This document shows positions 15,401 to 31,622 of a DNA stretch of 34,262 nt, piece by piece. Origin of the DNA: Sphingomonadales bacterium (GTDB lineage Bacteria > Pseudomonadota > Alphaproteobacteria > Sphingomonadales > Sphingomonadaceae); contig JAGWVC010000037.1 of NCBI GenBank assembly GCA_018971065.1, forward strand, positions 1-34,262, read 5' to 3'. How positions within the stretch are numbered: the first letter of the stretch is position 1; every line of letters starts with the position of its first letter. A program made the position numbers and the translations under genes. The notes beneath the pieces are model-generated. The model worked only from the letters and a program-made list of their open reading frames with translations, did no database searches and was not told where the DNA came from.

Positions 15401-15402
15401 CA

Positions 15403-16213: not shown

Positions 16214-17962
16214 CTATCGCCGCCGGTGGGTCTCGGCGTGAACCATGCCCTGGCGGGCGCGCAGCAGGTCGTGCCGGGTCAGGATGCCGGTGACCCGCAG
16301 CGTTGCTGAATCGAGGATGGGGATGCGACCGGTGCCGGTTGCGATCATCAGGTCGGCGATTTCGCCGATCGCCGAGGAATCGTAGCCGAACGCCTGCGAC
16401 GCGTCGGAAAGGACGTCGGCCAGCGTGGCGCCCGGCGAGGTTTCGCCCGCCTGCCACTGAAGCGCGTCCGACCGGGATACCAGCCCTTGCAGCCGGTGGT
16501 CGTCGTCGATCACCGGATAGCTGCGATGCACCGCCGGCCCGGCAAAGAAGGCGACGGCGTCGGCGATCGGCATGGTGCCGGGCAGGCAAACCGGATCGCG
16601 CGTCATGATCTGCGCGGCCTGCAGCAACTCGTGCGGATCGACCGTATATTCCTGGCGGATGTGGCGGCCCCGGCGGGCGATCTTTTCGGTCAGGATGGAG
16701 CGCGGCATCAGCAGCACGCTGATCGCATAGGCGCCGACCGATGCCGCGACCGTCATCGGCAGGGCGGCGTAGTGCCCGGTCAGTTCGACGGCGAACACCG
16801 CACTGGTCAGCGGGGCGCGCATGGCGCCGCTGACAATGGCGGCCATGCCGATCATCGCCCAGTAGCCGGGGGTGCCGGGCAGGATCTGGCCGACCAGCAG
16901 GCCGAGCGCGCCGCCCAGGATGAGCAGCGGCGCCAGCACGCCGCCCGAGGTTCCCGAGCCCAGCGCGACGAGCCACACCGTGGCCTTGACCAGAAGCAGC
17001 ACGACGATGGCCCGCAGCGCCATCGATCCGTCGAGCAGGTCCTGGATGTTCTGGTAGCCGGCGCCCAGCACCCGCGCATCACACAAGCCGCCGATGCCGA
17101 CGACGATGGCGCCGAGTGCCGGCCACCACATCCAGTGCAGCGGCAGGCGATGGAACAGGTCCTCGATGCGGTAGAGCAGGCTGGACAGGACGGTGGCCTC
17201 AACCCCCACCAGCACGCCGACCGCGAGGGTCAGCGCCAGCGTGGCCGGGCCGGACGGGGCCGGTGCCGCGAAGGGGAACAGCGGGCCGCTGCCGATCAGC
17301 AGCGGGCGCCATGCCAGCGCGACGAGCGCGGCGACGACCACCGGCACGAAACTGCGCGGTTTCCATTCGAACAGCAGCACTTCCACCGCCAGCAGTATCG
17401 CCGCCAGCGGGGTTCCGAAGATCGCGGTCATCCCGGCGGCGGCCCCGGCGACGAGCAGGGTCTTGCGTTCGGCGGCGCTGAGGTGAAAGCACTGGGCGAA
17501 CAGCGAACCGATCGCGCCACCGGTCATGATGATCGGCCCTTCGGCGCCGAACGGCCCGCCGCTGCCGATCGAGATGGCCGACGACAGCGGCTTGAGGATC
17601 GCCACTTTCAGCGAGAGGCGGCTTTCGCCGTAGAGGATGGCCTCGATCGCCTCGGGAATGCCGTGGCCGCGAATCTTTTCGGAACCGAACCGGGCCATCA
17701 CCCCGATAATCAGGCCGCCGAGGACGGGGATGGCGAGAAGGACGATCCCGAGCGCGTTGTCCTCGATCCGCGCGGGGGCTGCGGACAGGCGGCCGAACCA
17801 GAACAGGTTGGTGGCAATGGCGATCGCCTTGATCAGCAGCCATGCGCCCAGCGCGCCGCCCGAGCCGACGACGAGAGCGGCGGCGCCCAGCGCGACCATG
17901 CGCAGATCGGCGCTGTGATCGGCCAGTTTTCGGGGCTTGGAAATCGGACGGGACGCGTTCAT
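16214..17962 (-). CDS. CLC-type voltage-gated chloride channel family protein with CBS domains
   Basis: 582 residues. A membrane domain of about 430 residues carries the three CLC anion-path segments: RGHGIPEA (about 98-105), GSGGPFGAEGP (about 133-143) with gating Glu141, and GTSGGVLAPLL. Two cytoplasmic CBS domains follow (MTRDPVCLPGTMPIADAV..., then LADVL...). By alignment to E. coli ClcA, the internal proton-transfer glutamate (Glu203) is Val195, as in CLC channels, and the central Ser107 is His100. This suggests a passive channel or altered selectivity rather than a classical 2Cl-/H+ antiporter. Its promoter (TATAAT at 17991-17996, minus strand) is covered by a MarR-type operator, and the MarR gene is divergent. 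Confidence 0.92.
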   Translation of the reverse strand: MNASRPISKPRKLADHSADLRMVALGAAALVVGSGGALGAWLLIKAIAIATNLFWFGRLSAAPARIEDNALGIVLLAIPVLGGLIIGVMARFGSEKIRGHGIPEAIEAILYGESRLSLKVAILKPLSSAISIGSGGPFGAEGPIIMTGGAIGSLFAQCFHLSAAERKTLLVAGAAAGMTAIFGTPLAAILLAVEVLLFEWKPRSFVPVVVAALVALAWRPLLIGSGPLFPFAAPAPSGPATLALTLAVGVLVGVEATVLSSLLYRIEDLFHRLPLHWMWWPALGAIVVGIGGLCDARVLGAGYQNIQDLLDGSMALRAIVVLLLVKATVWLVALGSGTSGGVLAPLLILGGALGLLVGQILPGTPGYWAMIGMAAIVSGAMRAPLTSAVFAVELTGHYAALPMTVAASVGAYAISVLLMPRSILTEKIARRGRHIRQEYTVDPHELLQAAQIMTRDPVCLPGTMPIADAVAFFAGPAVHRSYPVIDDDHRLQGLVSRSDALQWQAGETSPGATLADVLSDASQAFGYDSSAIGEIADLMIATGTGRIPILDSATLRVTGILTRHDLLRARQGMVHAETHRRR

Positions 17963-18017: not shown

Positions 18018-18033
18018 CCGTGGGATGTGCCCG

Positions 18034-18444
18034 ATGACGAATGCGGCGCTGGCCGATGCCGATTACAAGGTGCTTGCCGATTTCCGCGCGACGATCCGGC
18101 AGTTCCTGGCCTTCAGCGAAGCCCGGGCGGCCGAAGTGGGCCTGACCCCGCAGCAGCACCAGGCGTTGCTGGCGATCCGGGCTGCCGACGCGGGCAAGGC
18201 GACCATCGGCTATGTTGCCGAGCGGCTGATGCTGAAGCCGCACAGCGCCAGCGGCCTTGTCGATCGGCTGGCATCGCTGGGCCTGCTGGAGCGGCAGGTG
18301 GCGTCCGGCGATCGGCGGCAGGCCCAGCTCGTCCTGACCGGGCGGGCGCGCGATCTGCTGGCCGAGCTGGGCCGTACCCACCGCGACGAGTTGCGGCGGT
18401 TGGGGCCGATGCTGACCGAATTGCTGGGGCGGCTGGACGGGTAG
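18034..18444 (+). CDS. MarR family transcriptional regulator
   Basis: 136 residues from the ATG at 18034 (GGGA 8 bp upstream); an in-frame ATG at 18025 has no spaced Shine-Dalgarno. The winged helix-turn-helix is plain: GLTPQQHQALLAI, IGYVAERLMLKPHSASGLVDRLASLGLLER, then the wing SGDRRQAQLVLT. Terminal helices provide the dimer interface. It is divergent from the CLC gene across 71 bp with one perfect operator, so autoregulation and ligand-relieved repression of the channel are expected. The ligand is unknown; MarR proteins typically respond to anionic or phenolic compounds or to oxidants. Confidence 0.9.
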   Translation: MTNAALADADYKVLADFRATIRQFLAFSEARAAEVGLTPQQHQALLAIRAADAGKATIGYVAERLMLKPHSASGLVDRLASLGLLERQVASGDRRQAQLVLTGRARDLLAELGRTHRDELRRLGPMLTELLGRLDG

Positions 18445-18460: not shown

Positions 18461-19531
18461 TCAGATCAGGAACCGCGCGCAGGCCAGGGCGGTGACAAGG
18501 CTGACCAGCGTGGCGGCGATGACCGGGGTGGTGGCGCGCAGGCCGCCCGCCAGCAGCATGTCGAGCCGCGTGCGCATTGCGGTTGCGGTGACCGCGAGCA
18601 GCAGCAGGGTCTTCGATGCCGAGAGCGACAGGCCGGTGATCGCCGCGGGGATTGTCAGAAGCGAGTTGAGCGCGACCACGGCCAGGAAGGCGACGATGAA
18701 CCACGGCAGCGAAATGCGCTGCCACCACCTGGCCTGCGCGCCGTCGCGGGGGATGAGCAGCCCGACCAGCGCGACGATCGGCGCGAGCAGGGCGACGCGG
18801 GCGAGCTTGACGATGGTGGCGTGGCTGCCGGCGAGGTCGGAGAAGGCATAGCCGCCGCCGATCGCCTGCGCGACGTCGTGGATGGAGGCGCCGATCAGGA
18901 ACCCGGCCTGATTGTCGGTGAAATGCAGTTCGAGCGCCAGCAGCGGGTAGATCGACATCGCGGCGGCCGAGGCGAGCGAGATGCCGACCAGCGTGAGCGC
19001 GAACTGGGCCTGGCTGAGGCGGTCCTTGCCGATGACGCCATAGAGCGCGAGCGCGGCGCTGGCGCCGCAGATGGCGGTGGCGCCGCCGGCGAGCAGGCCG
19101 GCCCAGGTGTCCTGGCCGGAAAGGCGCGCGCCGAGCCAGCCCGCCAGCATGGTCAGCGCCATGACCACCAGCAGGCAGGCGAACGGGACCGGGCCGACCA
19201 CGGCGATCTGGTGGAACGTGACCTGGAGGCCCAGCACGACGATGCCGAGGCGCAGGCAGGTGCGGCCGACGAAGTCCAGCCCGCGATGGGTGCGCGGATC
19301 GCCCGAGACGAAGTTCATGGCGAGGCCGACCAGCAGGCCGAGCAGGATGATCGGGAAGTGATAGCGATCGGCCAGCCAGGCGGCGGCGGCGCTGACCACG
19401 CCGCAGGCGGCAAGGCCGGGGAACAGGGGGCGGACCGGTGGTTCCGGCTGCGCCGGGGACACGTCGGCCAGATGCAGTTCGCCGAACAGGTCGCCGCCGT
19501 AAGGCAGGGTTTCCCAATCGATCTCGGCCAT
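18461..19531 (-). CDS. YeiH family (UPF0324) putative sulfate/sulfite exporter
   Basis: 356 residues with about ten hydrophobic segments and a ~40-residue soluble N-terminus. Family signatures are RLGIVVLGLQVTF, GGATAICGASAALAL and IGASIHDVAQAIGGGYAFSD, which define the Cons_hypoth698/YeiH membrane proteins annotated as putative sulfate exporters. The ATG at 19531 has GGGAGA upstream. It is divergent from the MFS gene, and a copy of the 20-bp motif shared with the sulfoquinovosidase/receptor region lies between them at 19555-19574. In this context the most economical role is removal of the sulfite released by the SQ monooxygenase. That role is inferred; transport by this family is little characterised. 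Confidence 0.85.
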   Translation of the reverse strand: MAEIDWETLPYGGDLFGELHLADVSPAQPEPPVRPLFPGLAACGVVSAAAAWLADRYHFPIILLGLLVGLAMNFVSGDPRTHRGLDFVGRTCLRLGIVVLGLQVTFHQIAVVGPVPFACLLVVMALTMLAGWLGARLSGQDTWAGLLAGGATAICGASAALALYGVIGKDRLSQAQFALTLVGISLASAAAMSIYPLLALELHFTDNQAGFLIGASIHDVAQAIGGGYAFSDLAGSHATIVKLARVALLAPIVALVGLLIPRDGAQARWWQRISLPWFIVAFLAVVALNSLLTIPAAITGLSLSASKTLLLLAVTATAMRTRLDMLLAGGLRATTPVIAATLVSLVTALACARFLI

Positions 19532-19554
19532 CGCGGCATTCTCCCGGTGGTTCT

Positions 19555-19574
19555 TATGTCCTGCGGTGTCATAT
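19555..19574. promoter_or_regulatory. candidate LacI operator, copy 1 (yeiH/MFS divergent region)
   Basis: TATGTCCTGCGGTGTCATAT matches 18 of 20 positions with 23487-23506. The ends form a dyad (TATG/CATA). It lies 24 bp from the YeiH start and 80 bp from the MFS start, so one protein could control both directions. Confidence 0.7.
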
Positions 19575-19654
19575 CCGCTTTTCTTCTGCTTGCGAAGTGC
19601 TAGTTTGGCGATGGTGACGCCGGTCTCGAGCCGTGCGCGCGGGGGAGAGAGCAT

Positions 19655-20878
19655 ATGGCGGATGGCACGCGGATGGGCCGGGCAACCACGGTGCTGGTGG
19701 TGCTGCTGTTTTTCGGCAACGCGCTGAACTATGTCGATCGGCAGGTGCTGGCGTTGCTGAAGCCGACGCTGGAGGCGACATTCCACTGGAGCGACGTCGA
19801 TTATGCCAATCTTGGTTCCGCCTTCCAGGTGGCCGCGGCCGGTGCCTTGCTGCTGGTCGGCTGGTTCGTCGACCGGCTGGGGGTACGGCTGGCCTATGGC
19901 ATTGCCGTGGCGGTGTGGAGCGCGGCGGGCATGGCGCACGCGCTGGCCGCCAGCGTGCAGCAGTTCGTGGCGGCGCGGGTGCTGCTGGCGGTGGGCGAAT
20001 CGGTCAGCACGCCGGCGGGGCTGAAGGCGGCGGCGATGTACATGCCCGCGAAGCAGCGCAATCTGGCGATCGGGCTGGTGAACACGGCGCCCAATATCGG
20101 CGCGATCCTGACGCCGCTGATCATTCCGCCGTTTGCGCTGGCGTTCGGCTGGCAGGCGGCGTTCTGGGTGACCGGCGGGCTGGGATTCCTGTGGCTGGCG
20201 GGCTGGGCGGCGGGCACGCGGCAACTGGTGCCGGTGAGCGCGGCGCCCGAACGCGCGCGGGTGGCCTGGGGCGAACTGCTGGCCGACCGGCGGACCTGGG
20301 CGGTGATCGGCGCCAAGGCGTTCACCGACGCGGTGTGGTGGTTCGTGCTGTACTGGATGCCTGATTTCTTCCACCGCGAATTCGCCATGACCCAGGCCGC
20401 GCTGGGCGGGCCGGTGGCGGTGGTGTTCGTGCTGGCGGCGCTGGGCGCGGTAACGTCGGGCGCGCTGTTCCCGCTATTGCAGGCGCGCGGCTGGGACATG
20501 AACCGGGCGCGCAAGGCATCGATGCTGTTCTTTGCGCTGGCGGTGCTGGGGATGCCGCTGGCGATGCTGGCGCACAACCCGTGGGTGGCGGCGGCGCTGA
20601 TCGGCGTGGGGCTGTTCGCGCATCAGGGGTTTTCGACCAATGTGTTCGGGATGACCGCCGACGTGGTGCCGGCGACGCGCATCGCCAGCGTGATCGCGCT
20701 GGGCGCGGTGGCGGGCAACCTTTCGGGCGCGGGAATCATCAAGTTCGCGGGGTGGTCGCTGGCCGGCGGGCACGGGTATCTGCCGCTGTTCGTCTATTGC
20801 GGCGGGGCCTATCTGGCGGCGCTGCTGTGGGTGCAGGTGCTGCTGCCCAGGCTGGTGATGACCAACGGCGTGGATTGA
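19655..20878 (+). CDS. MFS transporter, ExuT-like anion:cation symporter family; probable SQ/SQGro importer
   Basis: 407 residues with twelve predicted membrane segments in two six-helix halves. NYVDRQVLALLKP in helix 1 and the WFVDRLGVRLAYG loop between helices 2 and 3 are typical of the hexuronate/ACS branch, which imports acidic sugars with protons. A sulfonated sugar is a similar anionic hexose, and the flanking genes point to sulfoquinovose or its glycerol glycoside as substrate; that is inference. The start is the ATG at 19655 with GGGGGAGAG upstream. A candidate LacI site precedes it. It ends 93 bp before the convergent receptor gene. Confidence 0.88.
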   Translation: MADGTRMGRATTVLVVLLFFGNALNYVDRQVLALLKPTLEATFHWSDVDYANLGSAFQVAAAGALLLVGWFVDRLGVRLAYGIAVAVWSAAGMAHALAASVQQFVAARVLLAVGESVSTPAGLKAAAMYMPAKQRNLAIGLVNTAPNIGAILTPLIIPPFALAFGWQAAFWVTGGLGFLWLAGWAAGTRQLVPVSAAPERARVAWGELLADRRTWAVIGAKAFTDAVWWFVLYWMPDFFHREFAMTQAALGGPVAVVFVLAALGAVTSGALFPLLQARGWDMNRARKASMLFFALAVLGMPLAMLAHNPWVAAALIGVGLFAHQGFSTNVFGMTADVVPATRIASVIALGAVAGNLSGAGIIKFAGWSLAGGHGYLPLFVYCGGAYLAALLWVQVLLPRLVMTNGVD

Positions 20879-20899
20879 ATGGGCTGGCCGTAAAGCAAA

Positions 20900-20927
20900 G
20901 GCCCCCCGCCGTTGCCGGCGGGGGGCC
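20900..20927 (-). terminator. intrinsic terminator of the TonB-dependent receptor gene
   Basis: A perfect 11-bp GC-rich stem (GGCCCCCCGCC / GGCGGGGGGCC) with a 6-nt loop. Read on the minus strand it is followed by TTTGCTTT, so it fits best as the end of the receptor transcript, though it may stop MFS transcription from the other side as well. It lies in the 92-bp gap between the convergent genes. Confidence 0.75.
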
Positions 20928-20932
20928 TGATT

Positions 20933-20955
20933 GCTGCCCCGAGGGGAGGGGCAGC
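20933..20955. terminator. second hairpin between the MFS and receptor genes
   Basis: GCTGCCCC (20933-20940) and GGGGCAGC (20948-20955) form a perfect 8-bp stem with a 7-nt loop, directly after the receptor stop on the minus strand. It has no T run of its own and probably supports the stronger hairpin beside it. Confidence 0.4.
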
Positions 20956-20970
20956 GGCAGGGAGTCCTGA

Positions 20971-23370
20971 TCAGAAGTTGTAGCGGGCGTTCACGCCCCA
21001 GTAGCGATCGGCGTCGCGGGGGATCTGGTAGCGGTACGAGCCGCCCGGCCCGCCGTTGATGATGGCGGCGGCGTAGTGCTGGTTGAACAGGTTGCGCACT
21101 TGCGCGGTGACCTTCCACTTGTCGCTGGGGCTGACGAGGCCGAGCGAGAGGTTGACCAGCGCATAGGCCGGGATCGTGCCGAACTGGCGCTGGACCGGAT
21201 CGGGCGCGAACAGCGAGAGCTGGCTGGACTGGAAGTTCATCTGCGCGCCGAAGGCGAGGTCGGCGATGCCGTCGGTGCGGACGCGATGATCGAACGCCAC
21301 CGAGCCCTTCCACTTCGGCGCATAGCCCAGCGCGGTGCCCGATGGGATGATCGCGGTGGCGGCGGCGCCGGGTGCGGCCAGGAACGCATCGACGTGCGCG
21401 TCGGTATAGGCGACGCCGCCGTTCACGGTGGTGTCCGGCCCGAGGCGCAGGTTGACGTCGGCCTCGACGCCGCGCGTGGAGACCTCACCGGCGTTGGTGA
21501 AGCGGGTGACGACGACGCCGGCGACGAGATCGGGGTTGTTGGCCTGGAAGTTGTGGTACTTGGCATAGAACCCGGCGAGGTTGATCGTCAGGTGGCCGCC
21601 GAGCAGCGAGTTCTTCAGGCCGACCTCGAACGCGTCCGAGGTTTCGGGCGCGATGACGTTGGTGCCGGTGGCCGTGAGGTTGAAGAAGACGTTGTAGGCC
21701 GGGCCCTTGTAGCCGCGCGTGTAGCTGGCATAGGCGGTGACATCGCGGCTGAGGTCGGCCTGGAGCACGGCCTTGCCCGAGAGGTTGTCGCTCTTCGTGC
21801 CGGTGCGGAACGCCACGCCGTTGGCCGAGGTGACCGCGGCGCTGGCGGCGGCGGTGGGCGAGGTTCCGGCGGCGACCAGCGACAGGTACTGGTTGTAGAC
21901 GCCCTGGTCGAACGCCGGGTTGACGCCGCCGAACGCCGCGTTGGCGATCAGCCCGGTGGCGGTGCGGCTGTGGAACACGTCGAGCTGGTCATGGCTGTAG
22001 CGCAGCCCGCCGATCACGCGGACGCGGTCGTTGAACTTGAAGGTGGCCTGGCCGAACAGCGCGAGGTTCTTGAAGGTGGAGCCGAAATCGGCGGTGCCCG
22101 AGACGTTGCGGATGCCGGTGGCATCGGCGCTGGTGCAGGGGATCAGCACGCCGCTGGGCGCGGTGGCGGCGGCCGAGCAGCCGATGTCGGTGCGGGTGAA
22201 CACGCGTTCCGAGTAGGCACGGCTGAAGTAGCCGCCGAGTACATAGCTGAAGGTCTGGTCGGCCGGCGAGGTCACCCGCAGTTCCTGCGTGAAGGTGTTC
22301 GACTTCTGCGGGCCGCTGTCGTGAAGCTGGGTGAAGCCGACGTAGGCCTGGTTTAGCCAGTCACCGTCGCGAATCTCGGTGTTGTCCCACTTGCGGTACG
22401 AGGTGATGCTGGTGAGGGTGTGGCTGCCGAGCGCGATGTCGGCCTGGGCGGAGATGCCCCAGCCTTCTTCCCTGGTGGCGGTGACGAGGTTCTGCGTGAC
22501 ATAGCGCGTGCTGGCGCCCGACGGCGCCGGCAGCACGTTGAACGCCAGATTGGTGGTGGCAACGCCGGCGGCGGTGAGCGGGCCGGTGGCGATGATGTCG
22601 GCGCAGCAGTCGTCGTTGTTCTTGTGATAATCGGCGGCGACGTAGATCTTCAGGTCGCTCGACGGATCGTAGAGGAACTGGGCGCGGCCGCCGTAGTGCT
22701 TGTAGCCGTTGACGTACTTGCCGACAGCCTGGTTGATGATGTTGCCATCATAGCTGCCGTAGAAGCCGGTGAAGCGGCCGGCGAGATCCTTGCCCAGCGG
22801 CAGGTTGACGGCGGCCTTCAGGCGATATTCGTTGCGGTCGAAGTACGACGCCTCGACGCTGCCGCCCAGTTCGTGCTTCGGCATGATCGAGGTGATGTTG
22901 ATGACGCCGGCGCTGGCGTTCTTGCCGAACAGCGTGCCCTGGGGGCCGCGCAGCACTTCCATCTGGGCAATATCGACCAGATCGCTGAATGCCTCACCCG
23001 AGCGGGCGTAGACGACGCCATCGACCACGGTGGAGACCGAGGGTTCACCGGCGATGGAGAACGTGGCGGTGCCGACGCCGCGCAGGAAGATGGTCTGGTT
23101 AAGGGTGGTGCCCGACTTCAGGAAGTTGAGCGACGGCACCATCTGCGCGGCGGATTCGACGCTGGGGCGCGCGGCCTGGGCCAGCATGTCGCCCTTCAGC
23201 ACCGAGACGGCGAGTGGCACCTTCTGCAGGCTTTCCGAGCGCTTCTGCGCGGTGACGACGATTTCGTCCGAGGCGGTGTCGGCCGGCTTGCCCTGCGCGT
23301 GGGCGGTGGGCGCGGCGAGCGCAACGGCGGCGGCGGACAGCGCGGCGGATGCACGAAGCATGGCTTTCAT
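20971..23370 (-). CDS. TonB-dependent receptor; probable outer-membrane port for SQ/SQGro
   Basis: 799 residues from the ATG at 23370, preferred over the one at 23400 because GGGGAG lies directly before it. A signal peptide of about 25 residues ends at AHA|QG. A TonB box (DEIVVTAQKR) follows near residue 35, then the plug domain (residues ~50-170; LRGVGTATF, MEVLRGPQGTLFGKNASAGVINI). A long beta-barrel ends in the aromatic YNF. It fits the large sphingomonad receptor group rather than classical siderophore receptors. Divergent pairing with the sulfoquinovosidase gene across a shared operator makes sulfoquinovosyl glycerol or a related sulfolipid product the likely cargo. A perfect minus-strand -35 TTGACA lies inside that operator. 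Confidence 0.92.
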   Translation of the reverse strand: MKAMLRASAALSAAAVALAAPTAHAQGKPADTASDEIVVTAQKRSESLQKVPLAVSVLKGDMLAQAARPSVESAAQMVPSLNFLKSGTTLNQTIFLRGVGTATFSIAGEPSVSTVVDGVVYARSGEAFSDLVDIAQMEVLRGPQGTLFGKNASAGVINITSIMPKHELGGSVEASYFDRNEYRLKAAVNLPLGKDLAGRFTGFYGSYDGNIINQAVGKYVNGYKHYGGRAQFLYDPSSDLKIYVAADYHKNNDDCCADIIATGPLTAAGVATTNLAFNVLPAPSGASTRYVTQNLVTATREEGWGISAQADIALGSHTLTSITSYRKWDNTEIRDGDWLNQAYVGFTQLHDSGPQKSNTFTQELRVTSPADQTFSYVLGGYFSRAYSERVFTRTDIGCSAAATAPSGVLIPCTSADATGIRNVSGTADFGSTFKNLALFGQATFKFNDRVRVIGGLRYSHDQLDVFHSRTATGLIANAAFGGVNPAFDQGVYNQYLSLVAAGTSPTAAASAAVTSANGVAFRTGTKSDNLSGKAVLQADLSRDVTAYASYTRGYKGPAYNVFFNLTATGTNVIAPETSDAFEVGLKNSLLGGHLTINLAGFYAKYHNFQANNPDLVAGVVVTRFTNAGEVSTRGVEADVNLRLGPDTTVNGGVAYTDAHVDAFLAAPGAAATAIIPSGTALGYAPKWKGSVAFDHRVRTDGIADLAFGAQMNFQSSQLSLFAPDPVQRQFGTIPAYALVNLSLGLVSPSDKWKVTAQVRNLFNQHYAAAIINGGPGGSYRYQIPRDADRYWGVNARYNF

Positions 23371-23486
23371 CAGGTTTCTCCCCATCGGCAGTCGGTGCAA
23401 TCGAACGCACGGGCTGCAAACCGAACGCGCGGCTGGAGCATGTGCCGTTGCCGCATCTGGTGCTTGAAATGCGACGGGTGCGGCGG

Positions 23487-23506
23487 TATGTCAAGCGGTG
23501 TCATAT
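23487..23506. promoter_or_regulatory. candidate LacI operator, copy 2 (receptor/sulfoquinovosidase divergent region)
   Basis: TATGTCAAGCGGTGTCATAT, 18/20 identical to copy 1 at 19555-19574. On the minus strand it contains a perfect -35 TTGACA (23489-23494) pointing toward the receptor gene, so binding would block that promoter. It lies 45 bp before the sulfoquinovosidase ATG at 23552. This divergent gap (23371-23551) holds no other feature I can support. Confidence 0.72.
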
Positions 23507-23551
23507 GAATCGGCGGGCAAGCGTGGCAAATTGGCCACGGCGGCGGTCGGC

Positions 23552-25567
23552 ATGGGAGATCAGGGCTTGGGCGTCACGTTTTCGGTGGTGGATGGCGGCT
23601 TCGATCTGCATTTTGCGGGTCGGTTGCTGTTGCGCCACCGGGCCGACTGTCCAGCGGTGGTCACGGCGCGGGGCAATGCGCAAGTGGCTATGTTGCGCGG
23701 CAATTTCCGGATCGACGATGCGCCGGGCGAGCTGGCGCGGCCCGACGGCTGGTCGCGCGAGGGCGATTCGGTGATCCTGTCGCGGGGTTGTGCGCAAGTG
23801 GCGCGGATCGAGCTGGGTGAGGGCGGGCTGGCGATTGCCGCGCTGGCGCCCGGGCATGACCGGTTGTGGGTGCGGTTTCATGCCGAGCCGGGCGAAACCG
23901 TCTGGGGCGGCGGTGAGCAGATGAGCTATCTGGCGCTGAATGGCCGGCGGTTTCCGATGTGGACCAGCGAGCCGGGCGTGGGGCGTGACAAGACCACCGC
24001 GCTGACCCGCCTGATGGACGAGATCGGCATGGCCGGTGGCGACTACTGGAACACCAACTACCCGCAGCCGACCTTCCTGACATCGCGCTGGCTGGCGGTG
24101 CATCTGGATGCCGGTTGCTATTCGGTGCTCGATTTCGAGGATGCGGCGGCGCACCGGGTCGAGGTGTGGGGCAGTGCCGCGCGCTTCGAACTGTTCGCCG
24201 CCGATGGGCCGCAGGCGCTGGTTTCGGCGCTGTCGGCCCGGTTCGGGCGGCAATCGCCGCTGCCCGACTGGGCGATCGGCGGGGCGATCGTCGGGCTGAA
24301 GCAGGGCGAGGAAAGCTTCACCCGGCTGGAGCGGTTTGTCGAAGCCGGCGCGGCGGTTTCCGGGCTGTGGTGCGAGGATTGGGCAGGCATTCGCGAGACC
24401 AGCTTCGGGCGCCGCCTGTTCTGGGACTGGCAGGCCAGCGCGGCGCGTTATCCGGGGTTGCAGGCGCGGATCGCCGCGCTGGCCGCGCGGGGCATCCGCT
24501 TCCTGGGCTATGCCAATCCCTATCTGGCGGTGGACGGCGCGCTGTATGCGGAAGCGGCGGCGGGCGGGCATTTCTGCCTGAAGCGCCATGCCGACGAGGT
24601 CTATCTGGTCGATTTCGGCGAGTTCGACTGCGGGGTGATCGATTTCACCCGCGAGGCGACGCGGGCGTGGTTCGCCGAGCGGGTGCTGGGGCGGGAGATG
24701 CTGGACATCGGCATGGCGGGATGGATGGCCGATTTCGGCGAGTACCTGCCGACCGACGTGCGGCTGGCCGACGGGTCCGATCCGATGGAGGCGCACAACC
24801 GCTGGCCGGTGCTGTGGGCCGAGGTCAACGCGGCGGCGCTGGCCAGCCGGGGCAAGGCGGGCGACGCGGTGTTCTTCATGCGGGCGGGCTTTTCCGGCGT
24901 GCAGGCGCATTGCCCGCTGCTGTGGGCGGGGGACCAGTCGGTCGATTTCACCCGCCACGACGGCATCGGCACGGTGGTAACGGCGGCGCTGTCGGCCGGG
25001 CTGGTGGGCAATGCCTTCAGCCATTCCGATTGCGGTGGCTACACCTCGCTGCACGGCAACGTGCGCAGCGCCGAGCTGCTGATGCGCTGGTGCGAGCTGG
25101 CGGCGTTCGCGCCGGTGATGCGCAGCCACGAGGGCAACCGGCCCGATGACAACCTGCAGTACGATTCCACCCCCGAATTGCTGGCCTGCTTCGCGCGGTG
25201 GAGCCGGGTCCACGCGCATCTGGCGCCGTATGTGCGGCATTTGTGCGACGAGGCCGGGGCCAGCGGCCTGCCGGCGCAGCGGCCGCTGTTCCTGCATTAT
25301 CCCGACGACAAGACCCTCTTTGCAGTGCAGGACCAGTTTCTCTACGGTGCCGACCTGCTGGTGGCGCCGGTGATCGAGGCCGGCGCGGTTTCCCGGCGGG
25401 TGGTGCTGCCCGGCGATGCGCCGTGGCGCGATTGCTGGACGGGCGAACGGGTGACGCCCGGCGTGCATGACGTGTCGGCGCCGATCGGCCGGCCACCGGT
25501 GTTCTATCGCCCCGACAGCGCGTTTGCGGCGCTGTTCAGCGGGTTGGCGGGGGTGCTGGGCGAATGA
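23552..25567 (+). CDS. smoI: GH31 sulfoquinovosidase (YihQ/SmoI type)
   Basis: 671 residues, close to E. coli YihQ (678), and similar along its whole length: GGGEQMSYLALNGRRFPMW, GVGRDKTT, GGDYWNTNYPQPTF, HEGNRPDDN and APIGRPPVFYR. The nucleophile is Asp394 (WMADFGEYLPTD) and the acid/base is Asp461 (LLWAGDQ). Positions that grip the sulfonate in YihQ (Gln262, Gln288, Arg301, Trp304, Tyr508) are Lys250, Glu275, Arg288, Trp291 and Tyr497, the K-E-R-W-Y set known from the Agrobacterium-type enzymes. It should release SQ from sulfoquinovosyl glycerol. No signal peptide, so cytoplasmic. The GTG at 23498 lies inside the operator and is rejected as start. It overlaps the LacI gene by 4 bp. A general tool would call it alpha-glucosidase. 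Confidence 0.92.
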   Translation: MGDQGLGVTFSVVDGGFDLHFAGRLLLRHRADCPAVVTARGNAQVAMLRGNFRIDDAPGELARPDGWSREGDSVILSRGCAQVARIELGEGGLAIAALAPGHDRLWVRFHAEPGETVWGGGEQMSYLALNGRRFPMWTSEPGVGRDKTTALTRLMDEIGMAGGDYWNTNYPQPTFLTSRWLAVHLDAGCYSVLDFEDAAAHRVEVWGSAARFELFAADGPQALVSALSARFGRQSPLPDWAIGGAIVGLKQGEESFTRLERFVEAGAAVSGLWCEDWAGIRETSFGRRLFWDWQASAARYPGLQARIAALAARGIRFLGYANPYLAVDGALYAEAAAGGHFCLKRHADEVYLVDFGEFDCGVIDFTREATRAWFAERVLGREMLDIGMAGWMADFGEYLPTDVRLADGSDPMEAHNRWPVLWAEVNAAALASRGKAGDAVFFMRAGFSGVQAHCPLLWAGDQSVDFTRHDGIGTVVTAALSAGLVGNAFSHSDCGGYTSLHGNVRSAELLMRWCELAAFAPVMRSHEGNRPDDNLQYDSTPELLACFARWSRVHAHLAPYVRHLCDEAGASGLPAQRPLFLHYPDDKTLFAVQDQFLYGADLLVAPVIEAGAVSRRVVLPGDAPWRDCWTGERVTPGVHDVSAPIGRPPVFYRPDSAFAALFSGLAGVLGE

Positions 25568-26577
25568 GCGAACGGGCCAATATCCGCGATGTGGCGGCGC
25601 GGGCCGGGGTGGCGGTGAAGACGGTCAGCCGCGTGTTGAACGGCCATCCCTACGTCAGTGCCGAAAAGCGCGAGGCGGTGGAGGCGGCGATGCGGGCGCT
25701 GGATTTCCGGCCGAGCATTGCCGCACGCATCCTGACCGGCGCGAAATCGAACCAGGTGGCGCTGATCTATGACAATCACAGCCCCTACTACATGTTCCAG
25801 ATCCAGTCGGGCTGCTGGGAATTCTGCAAGCAGAACGGCATCCGCCTGCTGGCGCAGCCGGTGGACGTGGCTGATCCGCTGGTGGGCCAGCAGGTGCGCG
25901 GGCTGGTTTCGGAAACGCATGTCGATGGCATCATCCTGTCGTCGCCGGTTACCGACTGCGAGCCGGTGCTGCGCCAGTTGGAGGCGCTGGACATTCCGTT
26001 CGTGCGGATATCGCCGGGCACCAATCACGCGCTGACCAGCTCGGTGTTCATGGACGATGCCCAGGCGGCGGACGACATGACCACGCACCTGATCAATGTC
26101 GGGCACCGCCGCATCGGCTTCATCAAGGGGCACCCGAACCACATGGCCTCGGACGACCGGCTGTTCGGCTATCGCCGCGCGCTGGACCGGGCGGGAATCG
26201 GCTATGAGCCGGCGCTGGTGCAGGATGGCGCGTTCGATTTCGACAGCGGCGTGGCGGCGGCGCGCCAGTTCCTGACCATGCGTGACCGCCCGACCGCGAT
26301 CTTTGCGGCGAACGACGACATGGCCGCCGGGGTTCTGGCGGTGGCGCACGAAATGGGGATCGACGTGCCGGGCCGGCTGTCGGTGGCCGGGTTCGACGAT
26401 ACCACCTTGGCGCGGACGGTGTGGCCGCCGCTGACCACGATTCACCAGCCGATGGCCGAACTGGCGCGCGCGGCGGCCGAAATCCTGATTGCCGGTGGCG
26501 ACCTGACTCATCGCCGCCTTCCCCATACCCTTGTCGAACGCGCGTCGGTTGCGCCCCCACCCAGGAATCCCGCATGA
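25564..26577 (+). CDS. LacI family transcriptional regulator of the SQ locus
   Basis: 337 residues. The helix-turn-helix ANIRDVAARAGVAVKTVSRVLNGHPYVS and hinge RPSIAARILTGAKS are typical LacI family, followed by a periplasmic-binding-protein-like sugar domain (VALIYDNHSPYYM; DGIILSSPV; GHRRIGFIKG; AIFAANDDMAAGVL; VAGFDDTTLA). It sits inside the operon between the sulfoquinovosidase and aldo-keto reductase genes, with ATGA overlaps on both sides. The two 20-bp motifs at 19555 and 23487 are the candidate targets. The effector is probably SQ or SQGro, inferred from neighbours. Confidence 0.92.
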   Translation: MSERANIRDVAARAGVAVKTVSRVLNGHPYVSAEKREAVEAAMRALDFRPSIAARILTGAKSNQVALIYDNHSPYYMFQIQSGCWEFCKQNGIRLLAQPVDVADPLVGQQVRGLVSETHVDGIILSSPVTDCEPVLRQLEALDIPFVRISPGTNHALTSSVFMDDAQAADDMTTHLINVGHRRIGFIKGHPNHMASDDRLFGYRRALDRAGIGYEPALVQDGAFDFDSGVAAARQFLTMRDRPTAIFAANDDMAAGVLAVAHEMGIDVPGRLSVAGFDDTTLARTVWPPLTTIHQPMAELARAAAEILIAGGDLTHRRLPHTLVERASVAPPPRNPA

Positions 26578-27488
26578 GCCAATTGCCCGCGCCGCCCGCC
26601 ACCCGCACGCTGGGGAGCAGCGGCATTGAAATCTCGTCGATCGCCTGGGGCATGTGGCGGCTGGCCGAGGATGGCCGCAGCGCTGCCGATGCGGCGAGGC
26701 TGGTTCACGCCGCGCTGGATGCCGGCATCACCCTGCTGGATACCGCCGACATCTATGGCTTCGACGGCAAGGGCGGGTTCGGCGATGCCGAGGCGCTGCT
26801 GGGTGAGGTGCTGGCGGCCGAGCCGGGCCTGCGCGGGCGCATGGTGCTGGCCACCAAGGGCGGGATCATGCCGCCGTTGCCCTATGACCAGAGCCCGGAT
26901 TACCTGCGCGGCGCGATCGAGGCGTCGCTGCGGCGGCTGCGCACCGACACGATTGACCTGTGGCAGGTTCACCGGCCCGACATCCTGGCCCATCCGCAGG
27001 AAGTGGCGCGGGTGCTGGACGATGCGGTGGCGTCGGGCAAGGTGCGCGCGCTGGGGGTATCGAACTTCACGATGCCCCAGATCGCGGCGCTCGACCGGTT
27101 CCTGGGCAGCAGGCTGGTGGCCACCCAGCCCGAGATCAGCCCGTTGCGGATCGCCTGTTTCGAGAACGGCGAGCTGGACCAGGCGATGATGCTGGGGCTG
27201 ACGCCGCTGGCATGGTCGCCGCTGGGCGGTGGCGGCCTGCTGGCGCCGGCCGGGGCGCGGGGGGTGGAGGTTGCCTCGGCACTCGATGCGGTGGCCGGGG
27301 CGCAAGGCGTGTCGCGCAGTGTGGCTGCCTATAGCTGGTTGATGGCGCATCCGGCGGGCATCGTGCCGATCATCGGATCGCAGCAGGCGGCGCGGATTGC
27401 CGAAGGTGTTCAGGCCCTGCACGTCCGGTGGACGCGGCAGGAATGGTATGCGGTGCTGGTTGCCGCGCGTGGGGAGCCGCTGCCTTAA
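26574..27488 (+). CDS. smoB: aldo/keto reductase (YdhF type); probable 6-oxo-glucose reductase
   Basis: 304 residues from the ATG at 26574, which overlaps the LacI stop. The AKR tetrad is visible: Asp and Tyr in LDTADIYG, Lys in LATKGG, His in WQVHRPD. GVSNFTMPQ and EISPLR follow, with the cofactor segment IIGSQQAARIAEG near the end. WGMWRLAED and LAWSPLGGGGLL match the YdhF subgroup. In the Agrobacterium sulfo-SMO pathway an AKR reduces 6-oxo-glucose to glucose with NADPH. The position here between sulfoquinovosidase and SsuD-like genes supports the same role, but the family alone does not prove substrate. Confidence 0.82.
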   Translation: MSQLPAPPATRTLGSSGIEISSIAWGMWRLAEDGRSAADAARLVHAALDAGITLLDTADIYGFDGKGGFGDAEALLGEVLAAEPGLRGRMVLATKGGIMPPLPYDQSPDYLRGAIEASLRRLRTDTIDLWQVHRPDILAHPQEVARVLDDAVASGKVRALGVSNFTMPQIAALDRFLGSRLVATQPEISPLRIACFENGELDQAMMLGLTPLAWSPLGGGGLLAPAGARGVEVASALDAVAGAQGVSRSVAAYSWLMAHPAGIVPIIGSQQAARIAEGVQALHVRWTRQEWYAVLVAARGEPLP

Positions 27489-27579
27489 AAACAGGCGCGG
27501 AATCGGGTTCGGTTGGTTGTCACGGCGCTCGCTGGCGGGTTGGTCGGCGGAAAGTTGCGCCCTTTGAAGGAGAACGCGA

Positions 27580-28668
27580 ATGAGCACGCAAGCTTGCGAG
27601 ATCGCCTGGTTTTCGGCGCTGTGCGATGACGACTACGAGTTTCTGGGGGTGCCCGATGCGGCGCTGAAGTCGAGCTGGGAGCACTGCCGCAATATCGTGC
27701 TGCGCGCCGAGGAGGGCGGGTACGACAATATCCTGCTGCCTTCGGGCTACGAGCTGGGGCTGGATACCACCGCGTTCGCCGCCGCGGTTGCCACCCAGGT
27801 GCGGCGGATCAAGCTGCTGTGGGCCACCCGCATCGGCGAGGACTGGCCACCGCAACTGGCGCGCCGCATCGCCACGCTGGACCGCATCCTGGGACCGAAC
27901 GCGGCGGGCACTGGCGGGCGGCTGAACGTCAACATCATCTCGTCCGACCTGCCCGGGCAGAAGCTGGACAGCGGCCCGCGCTATCGCCGCGCCACCGAAG
28001 TGATGCAGATCGTGCGGACCTTGCTGAACGGGCAGTCGCTGGATCATGACGGCGAGTTCTACAAGCTGAAGCTCGATCCGCCGCGCATCGGCACGATTTC
28101 GGGCAAGGCGCCGGCGTTCTACTTCGGCGGGCTGAGCGAGGATGCGCGCGAATGCGCGGCCGAGGGCTGCGACGTCTACCTGATGTGGCCCGACACGATG
28201 GGCAACGTGCGCGACACCATCGCCGACATGACCGCGCGGGCGGCACGGTTCGGGCGCAAGCTGCGTTTCGGCTATCGCGCCCATGTGATCGTGCGCGAGA
28301 CCGAGGAGGAGGCGCGCAGCTATGCCGACCGGCTGCTGTCGAAGCTGGACGACGAGGCGGGCCGGGCGATCCGCGAGAAGTCGCTGGATGCCAAGGACTA
28401 TGGCGTGCAGCGGCAGGCGGCCTTGCGCGGCGCGGCGGGCGGCGACGGGTTCGTGGAAGAGAACCTGTGGACCGGGATCGGCCGGGCGCGTTCGGGCTGC
28501 GGGGCGGCGATTGTCGGCAATCCCGACCAGGTGCTGGCCAAGCTGCGCGCCTATCAGGCCGAGGGCATCGAGGCGTTCATCCTTTCGGGCTATCCCCATG
28601 CGCAGGAGGCGGACCTTTTCGCGCGGCACGTTCTGCCGCATATCGGGCATGGCCCCCTGGCGATCTGA
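27580..28668 (+). CDS. smoC: SsuD-like LLM-class flavin-dependent monooxygenase; probable sulfoquinovose monooxygenase
   Basis: 362 residues, with GAAGGAG 5 bp before the ATG. Long matches to E. coli alkanesulfonate monooxygenase SsuD are visible: RIATLDRILG, FYFGGLSEDARECAAEG, LRFGYRAHVIVRETEEEA, NLWTGIGRARSGCGAAIVGN and FILSGYPHAQEADLF. The arginines of the mobile loop (GRARSG) and of the GYRAHVIVR strand, and its His, are kept. The SsuD Cys54 position (TGRSCED) is not (SGYELGLD), consistent with a different substrate. It uses FMNH2 and O2 to cleave a C-S bond, here proposed to turn SQ into 6-oxo-glucose and sulfite. A 91-bp gap (27489-27579) without a clear promoter or terminator separates it from the AKR. 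Confidence 0.85.
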   Translation: MSTQACEIAWFSALCDDDYEFLGVPDAALKSSWEHCRNIVLRAEEGGYDNILLPSGYELGLDTTAFAAAVATQVRRIKLLWATRIGEDWPPQLARRIATLDRILGPNAAGTGGRLNVNIISSDLPGQKLDSGPRYRRATEVMQIVRTLLNGQSLDHDGEFYKLKLDPPRIGTISGKAPAFYFGGLSEDARECAAEGCDVYLMWPDTMGNVRDTIADMTARAARFGRKLRFGYRAHVIVRETEEEARSYADRLLSKLDDEAGRAIREKSLDAKDYGVQRQAALRGAAGGDGFVEENLWTGIGRARSGCGAAIVGNPDQVLAKLRAYQAEGIEAFILSGYPHAQEADLFARHVLPHIGHGPLAI

Positions 28669-28677
28669 GCGAGCGGC

Positions 28678-30159
28678 ATGAGCGAGGTTCCCTTCGATGT
28701 TGCGGTGATCGGCGGCGGCGTCAACGGCGCCGGGATCGCGCGCGATATTGCCGGGCGCGGGGCAAAGGTGCTGCTGCTGGAGGCGGGCGATCTGGCGGGG
28801 GGAACCTCGTCCGCCTCCACCAAGCTGATTCACGGCGGCTTGCGCTATCTGGAGCATTACGAGTTCGCGCTGGTGCGCGAGGCGCTGGGCGAGCGCGAGC
28901 GGCTGTGGGGGATCGCGCCGCACGTGATCTGGCCGCTGCGCTTCGTTCTGCCCTATGCGCCGGGGCTGCGGCCGCGCTGGCTGCTGCGGCTGGGGCTGTT
29001 CCTCTATGATCATATCGGCGGCAGGAAGCGGTTGCCGGCGACCGAGAGCGTGCGGTTGGGCGCGCATCCGGCGGGCGGTCCGCTGAAGCCGGAATACACG
29101 CGCGGCTTCGTCTATTCGGACTGCTGGGTGGACGATGCGCGGCTGGTGGTGCTGAACGCGCGCGATGCCGCGAACCGGGGCGCCGAAGTGCGGACGCACT
29201 GCGCGGTGACGGCGCTGGCGCGGGTGGGCGAGGGTTGGCGGATCGAGACCGGCGCGGGCGTGTTTCGCGCGCGGGCGGTGGTGAACGCGGCGGGGCCGGG
29301 GGTGCTGGACGTGCTGCAACGGGCGGGCGAGCGCACCAATCGCCACATGCGGCTGGTGCGCGGATCGCACATTGTCGTGCCCAAGCTGTTCGACCATCCC
29401 TACGCTTATTTCTTCCAGTTGGCGGACGGGCGGATTTTCTTCGCGATCCCTTACGAGCGGGATTTCACGCTGATTGGCACGACCGATCGCGATCACCACG
29501 GGCCGCTGGATTCGGTTCATGCCGATGCCGACGAGATCGCGTACTTGTGCGAAGGCGCGAGTGGCTATTTCCGGCGGGCGGTGACGCCGGCGGACGTGGT
29601 GTGGTCCTATGCCGGAGTGCGGCCGCTGGTGGATGACGATTCGGGCCGGCCCGAGGCGGCGACGCGGGGCTATCGGCTGGAATTGTCGCCCGCCGGGGAG
29701 GGCGCGGCGCTGCTGTCGGTGTTCGGCGGCAAGATCACCACCTATCGGCATCTGGCCGAGGCGGCGGTGGCCTTGCTGGCGGAGCGGCTGCCCGAACTGG
29801 CGGGGCCGGGGTGGACCGGTGCGGCGGCGCTGCCGGGCGGCGATTTCGCGATGGATGGTGCCGATGCTTTGCTGGCGCGGGTGCGCGGGCGCTATGGCTG
29901 GCTGGAGGCGGACTGGGCGCTGCGGCTGGTGCGGGCCTATGGCACCGAGGTGTTCGAGGTGCTGGGCGATGCCGGGTCGCTGGCGGATTGCGGGCGGCAT
30001 TTCGGGCATGGGTTGACCGAGGCCGAGGTGCGCTGGCTGATGACGCGCGAATGGGCGCGGTCTGCCGATGACGTGCTGTGGCGGCGGAGCAAGCTGGGGT
30101 TGCGGTTTGGCGCCGACGAGGCGGCGGCGTTAGCGGAACGGATGGGGGAGCAGGCGTGA
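28678..30159 (+). CDS. glpD: glycerol-3-phosphate dehydrogenase (GlpD, FAD-dependent)
   Basis: 493 residues. The FAD-binding GGGVNGAGIARDIAGRG opens the protein; GGTSSASTKLIHGGLRYLE is the classic GlpD signature, and GTTDRDH, SYAGVRPLVDDD and FGGKITTYRHLAE follow. It oxidises sn-glycerol 3-phosphate to dihydroxyacetone phosphate at the inner face of the membrane, passing electrons to quinone. It starts 9 bp after the monooxygenase stop with a weak Shine-Dalgarno and overlaps glpK as GTGA. Within this locus it probably deals with the glycerol half of SQGro rather than with free external glycerol. Confidence 0.95.
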   Translation: MSEVPFDVAVIGGGVNGAGIARDIAGRGAKVLLLEAGDLAGGTSSASTKLIHGGLRYLEHYEFALVREALGERERLWGIAPHVIWPLRFVLPYAPGLRPRWLLRLGLFLYDHIGGRKRLPATESVRLGAHPAGGPLKPEYTRGFVYSDCWVDDARLVVLNARDAANRGAEVRTHCAVTALARVGEGWRIETGAGVFRARAVVNAAGPGVLDVLQRAGERTNRHMRLVRGSHIVVPKLFDHPYAYFFQLADGRIFFAIPYERDFTLIGTTDRDHHGPLDSVHADADEIAYLCEGASGYFRRAVTPADVVWSYAGVRPLVDDDSGRPEAATRGYRLELSPAGEGAALLSVFGGKITTYRHLAEAAVALLAERLPELAGPGWTGAAALPGGDFAMDGADALLARVRGRYGWLEADWALRLVRAYGTEVFEVLGDAGSLADCGRHFGHGLTEAEVRWLMTREWARSADDVLWRRSKLGLRFGADEAAALAERMGEQA

Positions 30160-31622
30160 GCGGGGAATGGCTGCTGGTGCTGGACGAGGGCACGACCTCG
30201 ACCCGGGCGATGCTCTATGGCGTGGATGGCACCTGTGGCGGGATGGCGCAGGCGGGGCTGGAGCAGTTCTATCCGCGCCCGGGCTGGGTGGAGCACGATG
30301 CGCAGGAGATCCTGGACAGGACGCTGGGTTGCGCGCGGGAGATGATCGCCAAGGCGGGCGGGGCGGATCGCATCGCGGCGATCGGCATTACCAACCAGCG
30401 CGAGACGGTGGTGGCCTGGGACCGGCGCACCGGCAGGCCGGTGCATCGCGCAATCGTCTGGCAGGACCGGCGGACGGCGCCGTTTTGCGAGGGCCTGCGC
30501 GCTGCGGGGCACGAGGACGCGGTGCAGGCGACGACCGGGCTGGTGCTGGACCCCTATTTCAGCGCGAGCAAGCTGCGCTGGGTGCTGGACAATGTGCCCG
30601 AGGCGAAGGCGCTGGGCGGGAATCTGGCGTTCGGGACGATCGAGAGCTGGCTGGTGTGGCATCTGACCGGGGGAAGCCACGTCACCGACGCCAGCAATGC
30701 CAGCCGCACCAGCCTGCTGGCGCTGGGCGGTGATGGCTTCGACGCGGGGCTGTGCGATCTGTTCGGGGTGCCGGTGGGCGCGTTGCCCGAGGTGGTCGAT
30801 TGCGCGGGGGAACTGGGGGTGACCGCGGCGGAGGTGTTCGGCGCGGCGATCCCGATCTGCGGGATGGCGGGCGATCAGCAGGCGGCGACGATCGGGCAGG
30901 GCTGCCTGATGCCGGGGCAGACCAAGGCGACGTTCGGCACCGGGGCGTTCATCCTGACCAACATGGGCGACACGGTGCCGCGTTCGGCGAACCGCCTGCT
31001 GGGCACGGTGCTGTGCGCGGTGGGGGGCAAGCGGACTTATGCGCTGGAAGGATCGGTGTTTGCCGCCGGCAGCGCGATCCAGTGGCTGCGCGATAACCTG
31101 GGGCTGCTGGAATCGGCGCTGCAAAGCGAGGCGCTGGCGCGATCGGTGGCGGACAATGGCGGGGTGGTGTTCGTGCCGGCGCTGTCCGGGCTGGGCGCGC
31201 CGCACTGGCGGCCCGCGGCGACCGCCGCGCTGACCGGGATGACCTTTGCGACGACGCGCGCGCATATCATCCGCGCGGCGCTGGAAGCGATGGCGCATCA
31301 GTGCCACGACCTGAAGGCGGCGTTCGCGGCGGACGGGGCGGGGTGGAACCTGCTGCGCATCGACGGCGGGATGAGCGGCAACGACTGGCTGGCGCAGGAT
31401 CTGGCCGATATGCTGGACGTGCCGTGCGAGCGGCCGGTGGACGTGGAGACGACCGCGCGCGGGGCGGCGCTGCTGGCGGCGGTGGGGGCGGGGTTGTACC
31501 CGGACCTTACTGCGGCGGCGGCGGCGATGATCCCGGCGGTGACGCGGTTCGAGCCGGCGATGGCGGCGGGGGTGCGCGCGGCGCGGCTGGCGGGGTGGCG
31601 CGCGGCGCTGGCGGTCAGCTAA
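30156..31622 (+). CDS. glpK: glycerol kinase
   Basis: 488 residues starting at GTG 30156 in the GTGA overlap with glpD. FGGY-kinase motifs are complete: DEGTTSTRA (DQGTTSSR in E. coli, so Gln is Glu), GWVEHD, ITNQRETVVAWDRRTGRPV, DASNASRTSL, CGMAGDQQAATIGQ with the catalytic Asp, and LRIDGGMSGNDWLAQDLAD. It phosphorylates glycerol to sn-glycerol 3-phosphate. No glycerol facilitator gene is present, which fits glycerol being produced inside the cell by the sulfoquinovosidase. It overlaps the amidohydrolase tail to tail by 8 bp and closes the locus. Confidence 0.95.
   Translation: MSGEWLLVLDEGTTSTRAMLYGVDGTCGGMAQAGLEQFYPRPGWVEHDAQEILDRTLGCAREMIAKAGGADRIAAIGITNQRETVVAWDRRTGRPVHRAIVWQDRRTAPFCEGLRAAGHEDAVQATTGLVLDPYFSASKLRWVLDNVPEAKALGGNLAFGTIESWLVWHLTGGSHVTDASNASRTSLLALGGDGFDAGLCDLFGVPVGALPEVVDCAGELGVTAAEVFGAAIPICGMAGDQQAATIGQGCLMPGQTKATFGTGAFILTNMGDTVPRSANRLLGTVLCAVGGKRTYALEGSVFAAGSAIQWLRDNLGLLESALQSEALARSVADNGGVVFVPALSGLGAPHWRPAATAALTGMTFATTRAHIIRAALEAMAHQCHDLKAAFAADGAGWNLLRIDGGMSGNDWLAQDLADMLDVPCERPVDVETTARGAALLAAVGAGLYPDLTAAAAAMIPAVTRFEPAMAAGVRAARLAGWRAALAVS

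Follow-up and report, generated by a model that had tools for sequence, protein, structure and literature searches.

A predicted LacI-controlled sulfoquinovose regulon of the sulfo-SMO type and its operator in a sphingomonad contig

The window analyzed here is the whole of one 34,262-base contig (JAGWVC010000037.1) from a Sphingomonadales bacterium, in which nine genes at positions 18461-31622 are proposed to form a LacI-controlled regulon for the use of sulfoquinovose (SQ) by the sulfoquinovose monooxygenase pathway (sulfo-SMO, or sulfo-ASMO). We place the probability of this reading at roughly 0.93. The genes encode, in order and with strand, a YeiH-family membrane protein (-), a major facilitator superfamily (MFS) transporter (+), a TonB-dependent receptor (-), a GH31 glycosidase read as a sulfoquinovosidase (SQase, +), a LacI-family regulator (+), an aldo-keto reductase (AKR, +), a flavin-dependent monooxygenase (SMO, +), the glycerol-3-phosphate dehydrogenase GlpD (+), and the glycerol kinase GlpK (+). 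The enzyme families, the active-site residues, the clade of the SMO, the operon layout, and the operator with its conservation were read from the sequence. The chemistry of the core enzymes is presumed to be that described by others, as summarized in reviews, for Agrobacterium and Novosphingobium aromaticivorans.

In the proposed scheme, sulfoquinovosyl glycerol (SQ-glycerol) and/or free SQ would be imported by the receptor and the MFS protein, and a cytoplasmic GH31 enzyme would cleave SQ-glycerol to SQ and glycerol. The SMO, with reduced flavin mononucleotide (FMNH2) and O2, would break the C-S bond of SQ, releasing sulfite and leaving 6-dehydroglucose, which the AKR would reduce to glucose. 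The glycerol would be converted to dihydroxyacetone phosphate by GlpK and GlpD, and YeiH would remove the sulfite (or sulfate). LacI would sit on both copies of the operator and be released by an SQ-derived signal.

The SQ pathway was deduced from the finding that the SQase, the AKR, and the SMO each have a characterized SQ enzyme as best solved relative, the labels of the PDB entries being partly presumed. The best PDB match of the GH31 protein was 5ohy (E 2.6e-246, 56% identity, 823 bits), which bears the record name "Alpha-glucosidase yihQ" and which we take to be the Agrobacterium sulfoquinovosidase, a label not confirmed in the two reviews searched for PDB codes. Scores of 598-823 bits were obtained with the top six PDB sequences (four bear the name yihQ), versus 126 bits for the next alpha-glucosidase, and the entry named Sulfoquinovosidase (5aed, 5oht) scored 600 bits. 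NCBIfam firmly supported a YihQ-type GH31 protein, the name of the model being "alpha-glucosidase." The residues K268, E293, R306, W309, and Y515, together with D412 and D479 (numbering from GTG 23498), retain all five positions of what we take to be the SQ-binding set of AtSQase (K245, E270, R283, W286, and Y491) and both of its presumed catalytic aspartates (D388 and D455). These data support the assignment of the glycosidase as a GH31 sulfoquinovosidase. Since the N terminus from ATG 23552 shows no signal peptide by inspection, the enzyme is taken to be cytoplasmic.

The SMO was closest to 7olf (54% identity, 372 bits) and 7oh2 (53%, 369 bits), presumably both rhizobial SmoC, although their record names are methanesulfonate sulfonatase and alkanesulfonate monooxygenase and the two reviews searched did not confirm the label. 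Lower scores were obtained with 7jv3 (204 bits) and SsuD 1nqk (188 bits). A quick maximum-likelihood tree with 95 rows placed the SMO, 7olf, 7oh2, and the rows of 80 relatives on one branch (SH-aLRT 99), outside which were SsuD/MsuD, 7jv3, and ten SsuD-like paralogues from two Novosphingobium genomes. The AKR matched 7bbz best (194.7 bits versus 144.7 for YdhF); we assume this entry to be SmoB, a label likewise not confirmed in the reviews searched. The data thus support an SMO of the SmoC/SquD clade, rather than an SsuD, and an AKR of the SmoB/SquF type. The two genes are adjacent, and the sulfo-SMO pathway is identified in one survey by SmoB and SmoC lying within a 10-gene window (PMC13372026).

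A different reading of these two enzymes is that the SMO is an SsuD that scavenges alkanesulfonates for sulfur supply and that the GH31 protein is an ordinary alpha-glucosidase of a neighboring alpha-glucoside operon. The NCBIfam name of the glycosidase would agree with this, as would the match of the SMO to the SsuD model TIGR03565. However, that match (238.1 bits) is far under the curated cut-off of 518.2, and the SMO groups with SmoC. The wide gap in score between the GH31 protein and other alpha-glucosidases, and its retention of the presumed sulfonate-binding residues, also speak against the idea. Moreover, a single operator joins genes that would here be separate, and glycerol genes would be senseless for alkanesulfonates. 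This explanation was deemed very improbable. It was considered equally improbable that the pathway acts instead on another 6-deoxy-6-sulfosugar, such as sulfofucose, or on a sulfosugar glycoside other than SQ-glycerol. Substrate range is not readable from sequence, and sulfofucose catabolism is reported for a Paracoccus (PMC12421959). Nevertheless, SQ is the substrate of the nearest solved relative of each of the three enzymes (again with labels partly presumed), and the N. aromaticivorans enzymes are described in a review as characterized SQ enzymes (PMC9594981).

The families and key residues named for this locus in a first-pass annotation were recovered by the Pfam, PDB, and residue comparisons, and its SQase, SsuD-like monooxygenase, and AKR became GH31 SQase, SmoC type, and SmoB type, respectively. 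The phylogenetic check that it had proposed, of the SMO against SmoC and SsuD, placed the protein with SmoC and not with plain SsuD, although in a quick tree only. Its forecast that automatic annotation would read an alpha-glucosidase plus an LLM oxidoreductase and miss the system largely holds, given the NCBIfam name and the NCBI name "LLM class flavin-dependent oxidoreductase" for SMO relatives. The JGI name is, however, "alkanesulfonate monooxygenase," and a targeted survey that searched genomes for SmoB plus SmoC does find the system (PMC13372026).

Each of the nine genes is an open, intact frame at the position first claimed, with small corrections of starts only, and each protein has at least one Pfam family above the curated cut-off (Table 1). 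Overlaps of 4 bases were found for SQase/LacI, LacI/AKR, and GlpD/GlpK, the gap between SMO and GlpD is 9 bases, and that between AKR and SMO is 91 bases. Because of these overlaps and short gaps, the six plus-strand genes from SQase to GlpK are read as one operon. For the SQase, ATG 23552 is a more likely start than the listed GTG 23498, as the latter falls within the operator and the alignment to the best PDB match does not begin until residue 28 of the longer frame. The starts of YeiH and AKR were corrected to ATG 19531 and ATG 26574, and the first Met codon of the receptor is likely at about 23370. The layout was compared with a sample of 80 relatives' loci, many of which end at contig ends or at the 10-kb reach. 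The AKR lies directly upstream of the SMO in 75 of the 80, and SQase-LacI-AKR-SMO occurs in the same order on one strand in 49. These four genes are accompanied by receptor, MFS, and YeiH in 33 loci, and all nine genes are present in 7. It was concluded from the recurrence of this gene order that the layout is not due to chance.

Table 1. Positions of the nine genes and of the two operator copies in the window
Feature	Positions	Strand	Basis
YeiH-family (PF03601) membrane protein, putative sulfite/sulfate exporter	18461..19531	-	PF03601; operator common with SQase promoter
Operator copy 1, TATGTCCTGCGGTGTCATAT	19555..19574	+	between divergent YeiH and MFS
MFS transporter, likely SQ or SQ-glycerol importer	19655..20878	+	PF07690; adjoins operator
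TonB-dependent outer-membrane receptor	20971..23370	-	PF07715 + PF00593; divergent from SQase across operator copy 2
Operator copy 2, TATGTCAAGCGGTGTCATAT	23487..23506	+	between receptor and SQase
Predicted GH31 sulfoquinovosidase	23552..25567	+	best PDB match 5ohy, E 2.6e-246; active-site residues
LacI-family regulator, proposed SQ-responsive repressor	25564..26577	+	PF00356 + PF13377; operator co-occurrence
Aldo-keto reductase, SmoB/SquF-type, predicted 6-dehydroglucose to glucose	26574..27488	+	best PDB match 7bbz
Predicted FMNH2-dependent sulfoquinovose monooxygenase, SmoC/SquD-type	27580..28668	+	7olf/7oh2 identity; tree
Glycerol-3-phosphate dehydrogenase GlpD	28678..30159	+	NF009906
Glycerol kinase GlpK	30156..31622	+	NF000756

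Comparison of the two divergent promoters revealed one 20-base palindrome, TATGTCNNGCGGTGTCATAT, in both. It was not found in any of 100 shuffled controls, and no third site with up to 3 mismatches occurs elsewhere in the window. A shorter form of the pattern was at chance level in the window, with 11 matches found versus 13 expected, two of them being the known sites. As the pattern was derived from the two window sites, the relatives provide an independent test. Across the 80 loci and the window, 47 of the 48 regions between divergent receptor and SQase genes had the operator (up to 4 mismatches), as did 20 of the 23 between divergent YeiH and MFS genes. The reversed pattern occurred in none of them. 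A relaxed form with one mismatch allowed was present in 17 of 20 whole genomes (36 sites versus 4 for the reversed control), and the exact-match form in 1 of 289 genomes across the class, this being the Novosphingobium used as the centre. Among 99 genomes of the Novosphingobium genus group, 38 of the 39 that are SQase-positive had a site, as against 3 of the 60 that are SQase-negative (p 1.1e-22), with no match for the reversed control.

In the same genus-group genomes, 57 of the 67 sites lie no more than 13 kb from the monooxygenase on the same contig. Six of the ten remaining sites were examined (those of G398, G342, G393, G371, and G351 and one of two in G362), plus one from N. mathurense. 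The five detached sites that belong to SQase-positive genomes were all located between a divergent YeiH and MFS. The pair has clearly moved in three of these. In G398 it keeps the operator at a distance of about 160 kb from the SQ enzymes of that replicon, in N. mathurense it is about 17 kb away from the SMO, and in G342 it occupies the interior of a different contig. The G393 and G362 sites are near a contig end, and their separation may be an assembly break. Of the other four sites, one in G362 and one in G391 are within 100 bases of an SQase match by coordinates.

The operator was assigned to the window's LacI because the presence of the site follows LacI similarity. For this count, 69 loci with enough upstream DNA were scored at up to 3 mismatches, the 11 of the 80 that are short upstream being set apart (one of these has a site). 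The operator was present in 47 of 48 loci whose LacI is at least 68% identical to that of the window, in none of 14 with a LacI below 68%, and in 1 of 7 without a LacI match. Apart from 2 loci in which LacI had no match, every locus with a site thus has a similar LacI. That LacI acts as a repressor freed by an SQ compound is suggested by its family. The importer and exporter were tied to SQ use because the operator is conserved between YeiH and MFS. It is probable that, in a distinct sphingomonad SQ regulon, a LacI-family repressor binds TATGTCNNGCGGTGTCATA and jointly switches on import across both membranes, deglycosylation, desulfonation, sulfite export, and the salvage of glycerol. The repressor would also keep the regulon together even where YeiH and MFS have moved away from the enzymes.

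Glycerol salvage was placed in the regulon because GlpD moves within it, being next to the SMO in some relatives and next to YeiH in others. GlpD follows the SMO in the window and in 19 of the 80 relatives, and it stands beside YeiH on the same strand in 12, so that it adjoins one or the other in 31; two more that had been counted by strand alone, about 10 kb from YeiH, were left out. In 2 further relatives it is beside MFS with the operator between. The identities of the proteins were supported by NF009906 for GlpD (725 bits, cut-off 352) and by NF000756 for GlpK (554.7 bits, cut-off 498), the GlpK score on TIGR01311 being under the cut-off (569.2 versus 590.35). The role of both would be in the use of glycerol released from SQ-glycerol.

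For transport, YeiH matched PF03601 at 181.8 bits (cut-off 24.5), and the best NCBIfam match of the MFS protein was TIGR00893, a galactonate transporter subfamily, below the cut-off. The substrates and directions, including the direction and cargo of YeiH, are presumed from the families and the setting. SuyZ of Paracoccus is described as more likely a sulfite than a sulfate exporter, and a YeiH may do likewise (PMC11582611). The substrate of the receptor appears to be the weakest assignment, because this protein varies most among the relatives. Next to YeiH are a ClC-type chloride channel with CBS domains (16214-17962) and a MarR regulator (18025-18444), a region to which the relatives' loci rarely extend.

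Several observations count against the regulon as drawn. YeiH fell under the cut-off of NCBIfam TIGR00698, putative sulfate exporter (111.6 versus 232.6 bits), the receptor was 34-77% identical in those relatives that had a match to it (61 of 80), and GlpD was not found in 45 of the 80 loci, some of which end early. The operator is missing from three YeiH/MFS regions (L059, L062, and L069) and one receptor/SQase region (L054). Shuffling the bases of the 80 loci (1.43 million in all) yielded nine hits with up to 4 mismatches, and the SQase-negative G351 and G371 each contain a single site that is not flanked by a match to YeiH, MFS, or SQase. A scan for a sigma-70 promoter consensus found none at the SQase promoter, no flavin reductase or sulfite oxidase was present among the 30 Pfam-scanned frames of the window, and the tree program warned of long branches meeting among the paralogues. 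The YeiH score and the loci lacking GlpD would fit an otherwise identical pathway in which YeiH, GlpD, GlpK, and MFS are neighbors rather than partners. Against this, the YeiH/MFS operator is conserved even where the pair is on another contig or far from the enzymes, and GlpD occurs on either side of the regulon. Mere proximity was accordingly considered improbable, if a little less so than the two alternatives above. The first-pass annotation had described the nine genes as one coherent pathway. MFS, YeiH, and receptor share an operator with the SQase promoter; transport, the effector of LacI, and the source of FMNH2 we still infer.

The operator-like sites in the two SQase-negative genomes (L126 in G371 and L127 in G351) are possibly those of a related LacI. 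In L126 the site lies where a long frame begins, the N terminus of which looks secreted by inspection.

The supply of FMNH2 was addressed in the window and its relatives. With relatives' proteins as queries, no flavin reductase, RibB, SorA, or SqgA was found in the window. A SmoA/SsuE-type flavin reductase, which is not obligatory for a sulfo-SMO cluster, is absent there, the FMN_red query returning nothing. In 12 of the 80 loci (L006, L018, L023, L028, L032, L033, L034, L039, L040, L042, L043, and L045), an NADPH-dependent FMN reductase (PF03358) and a RibB-type 3,4-dihydroxy-2-butanone 4-phosphate (DHBP) synthase (PF00926) follow the SMO or GlpD, and the reductase alone does so in 4 more. 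We read the pair as a putative local flavin supply for the monooxygenase. A SorA-like sulfite dehydrogenase (2blf, E 1.7e-113) was found in 5 loci and an SqgA-like GH188 NAD-dependent SQase (8qc3, E 1.1e-106) in 17, 8qc3 being SqgA according to its report (PMC10755693). The families of these neighbors were checked on one member each. These neighbors of the SMO are what a two-component FMNH2 monooxygenase making sulfite from SQ would need. In 8 relatives' genomes, the SsuE model gave weak matches in 7 and none over the cut-off; two of these matches are beside the SMO (G004 and G006), where the FMN_red/RibB pair is. Since PF01613 flavin reductases were present in all 8 genomes, it is plausible that FMNH2 comes from a general pool.

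All 7,999 SMO candidates scored passed E 0.001, and the best 120 matches listed were all at least 83% identical to the SMO. At E 1e-80 or better, an SMO was found in 48 of the 99 genomes that sample the Novosphingobium genus group, and 29 plasmid records, six of them Novosphingobium, had a match at E 1e-60. A sphingomonad-type SMO (71-72%) was also seen in two Rhizobium loci (L072 and L073) and in Rhizobium plasmids; the quick tree groups it with rows of Sphingomonas. Neither locus has an AKR match just upstream of the SMO, and the L072 gene lies beside an apparent sugar ATP-binding cassette (ABC) transporter ATPase and another LacI. The distribution looks like gene transfer.

The kind of pathway is already known in sphingomonads, and the locus is less novel than first claimed. 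The core pathway had been regarded as established for Agrobacterium. This is correct, but reviews credit A. tumefaciens and N. aromaticivorans equally (PMC9594981, PMC12890257), the latter with recombinant enzymes and with no SsuE in the cluster (PMC9594981). The N. aromaticivorans DSM 12444 sulfo-ASMO system (SquD/SquF; Liu et al. 2021), compared here by the descriptions in those reviews, was found through YihQ-containing gene clusters. Like the window, it has an SQ monooxygenase and an AKR and lacks SsuE in the cluster. The A. tumefaciens system (Sharma et al. 2022) shares with the window the GH31 SQase and the SmoC and SmoB types. It is described as having an SQ-glycerol ABC transporter (PMC9594981), and the flavin reductase SmoA is part of the pathway definition (PMC12890257, PMC13372026). 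The window has instead a TonB receptor and MFS, GlpDK, YeiH, and a LacI operator, and no flavin reductase; by Pfam, no SQ-glycerol ABC transporter of the Agrobacterium-type smo cluster is among the nine genes. Clusters of GH188 (SqgA) with sulfo-SMO genes have the same SMO/AKR core, beside which an NAD-dependent SQase replaces GH31 (PMC10755693), and the operator pattern was absent from the three searched genomes with such clusters (G018-G020). In a mangrove incubation, Novosphingobium was reportedly dominant among assimilators of SQ carbon, and the pathway was predicted in this genus (PMC13372026). No LacI regulator or operator of SQ use in sphingomonads turned up in the literature searched, Liu et al. 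2021 lying outside that search; the papers found concern, by title, E. coli, Pectobacterium, and Bradyrhizobium. What is new from this work is the conserved operator and the boundary of the regulon.

Elsewhere in the window, a separate catabolic gene set at 410-16188 encodes an enoyl-CoA hydratase, a family III CoA-transferase, an epoxide hydrolase, an aldehyde dehydrogenase, carboxymuconolactone decarboxylase-like and hydroxyisobutyrate dehydrogenase-like proteins, and short-chain dehydrogenases. A sulfotransferase-family protein (PF13469) lies within it at 7649-8938. An F420H2-dependent quinone reductase family protein (PF04075) is encoded at 2880-3380 of this sphingomonad contig.

Few organic sulfur compounds are as abundant as sulfoquinovose, and through its degradation the sulfur of plants and algae reenters the cycle. 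Judging by the locus, a sphingomonad represented here only by a metagenome-type contig can make complete use of SQ. The operator offers a means of finding members of the SQ regulon away from the enzymes and makes the proposed roles of the transporter, exporter, and regulator testable.

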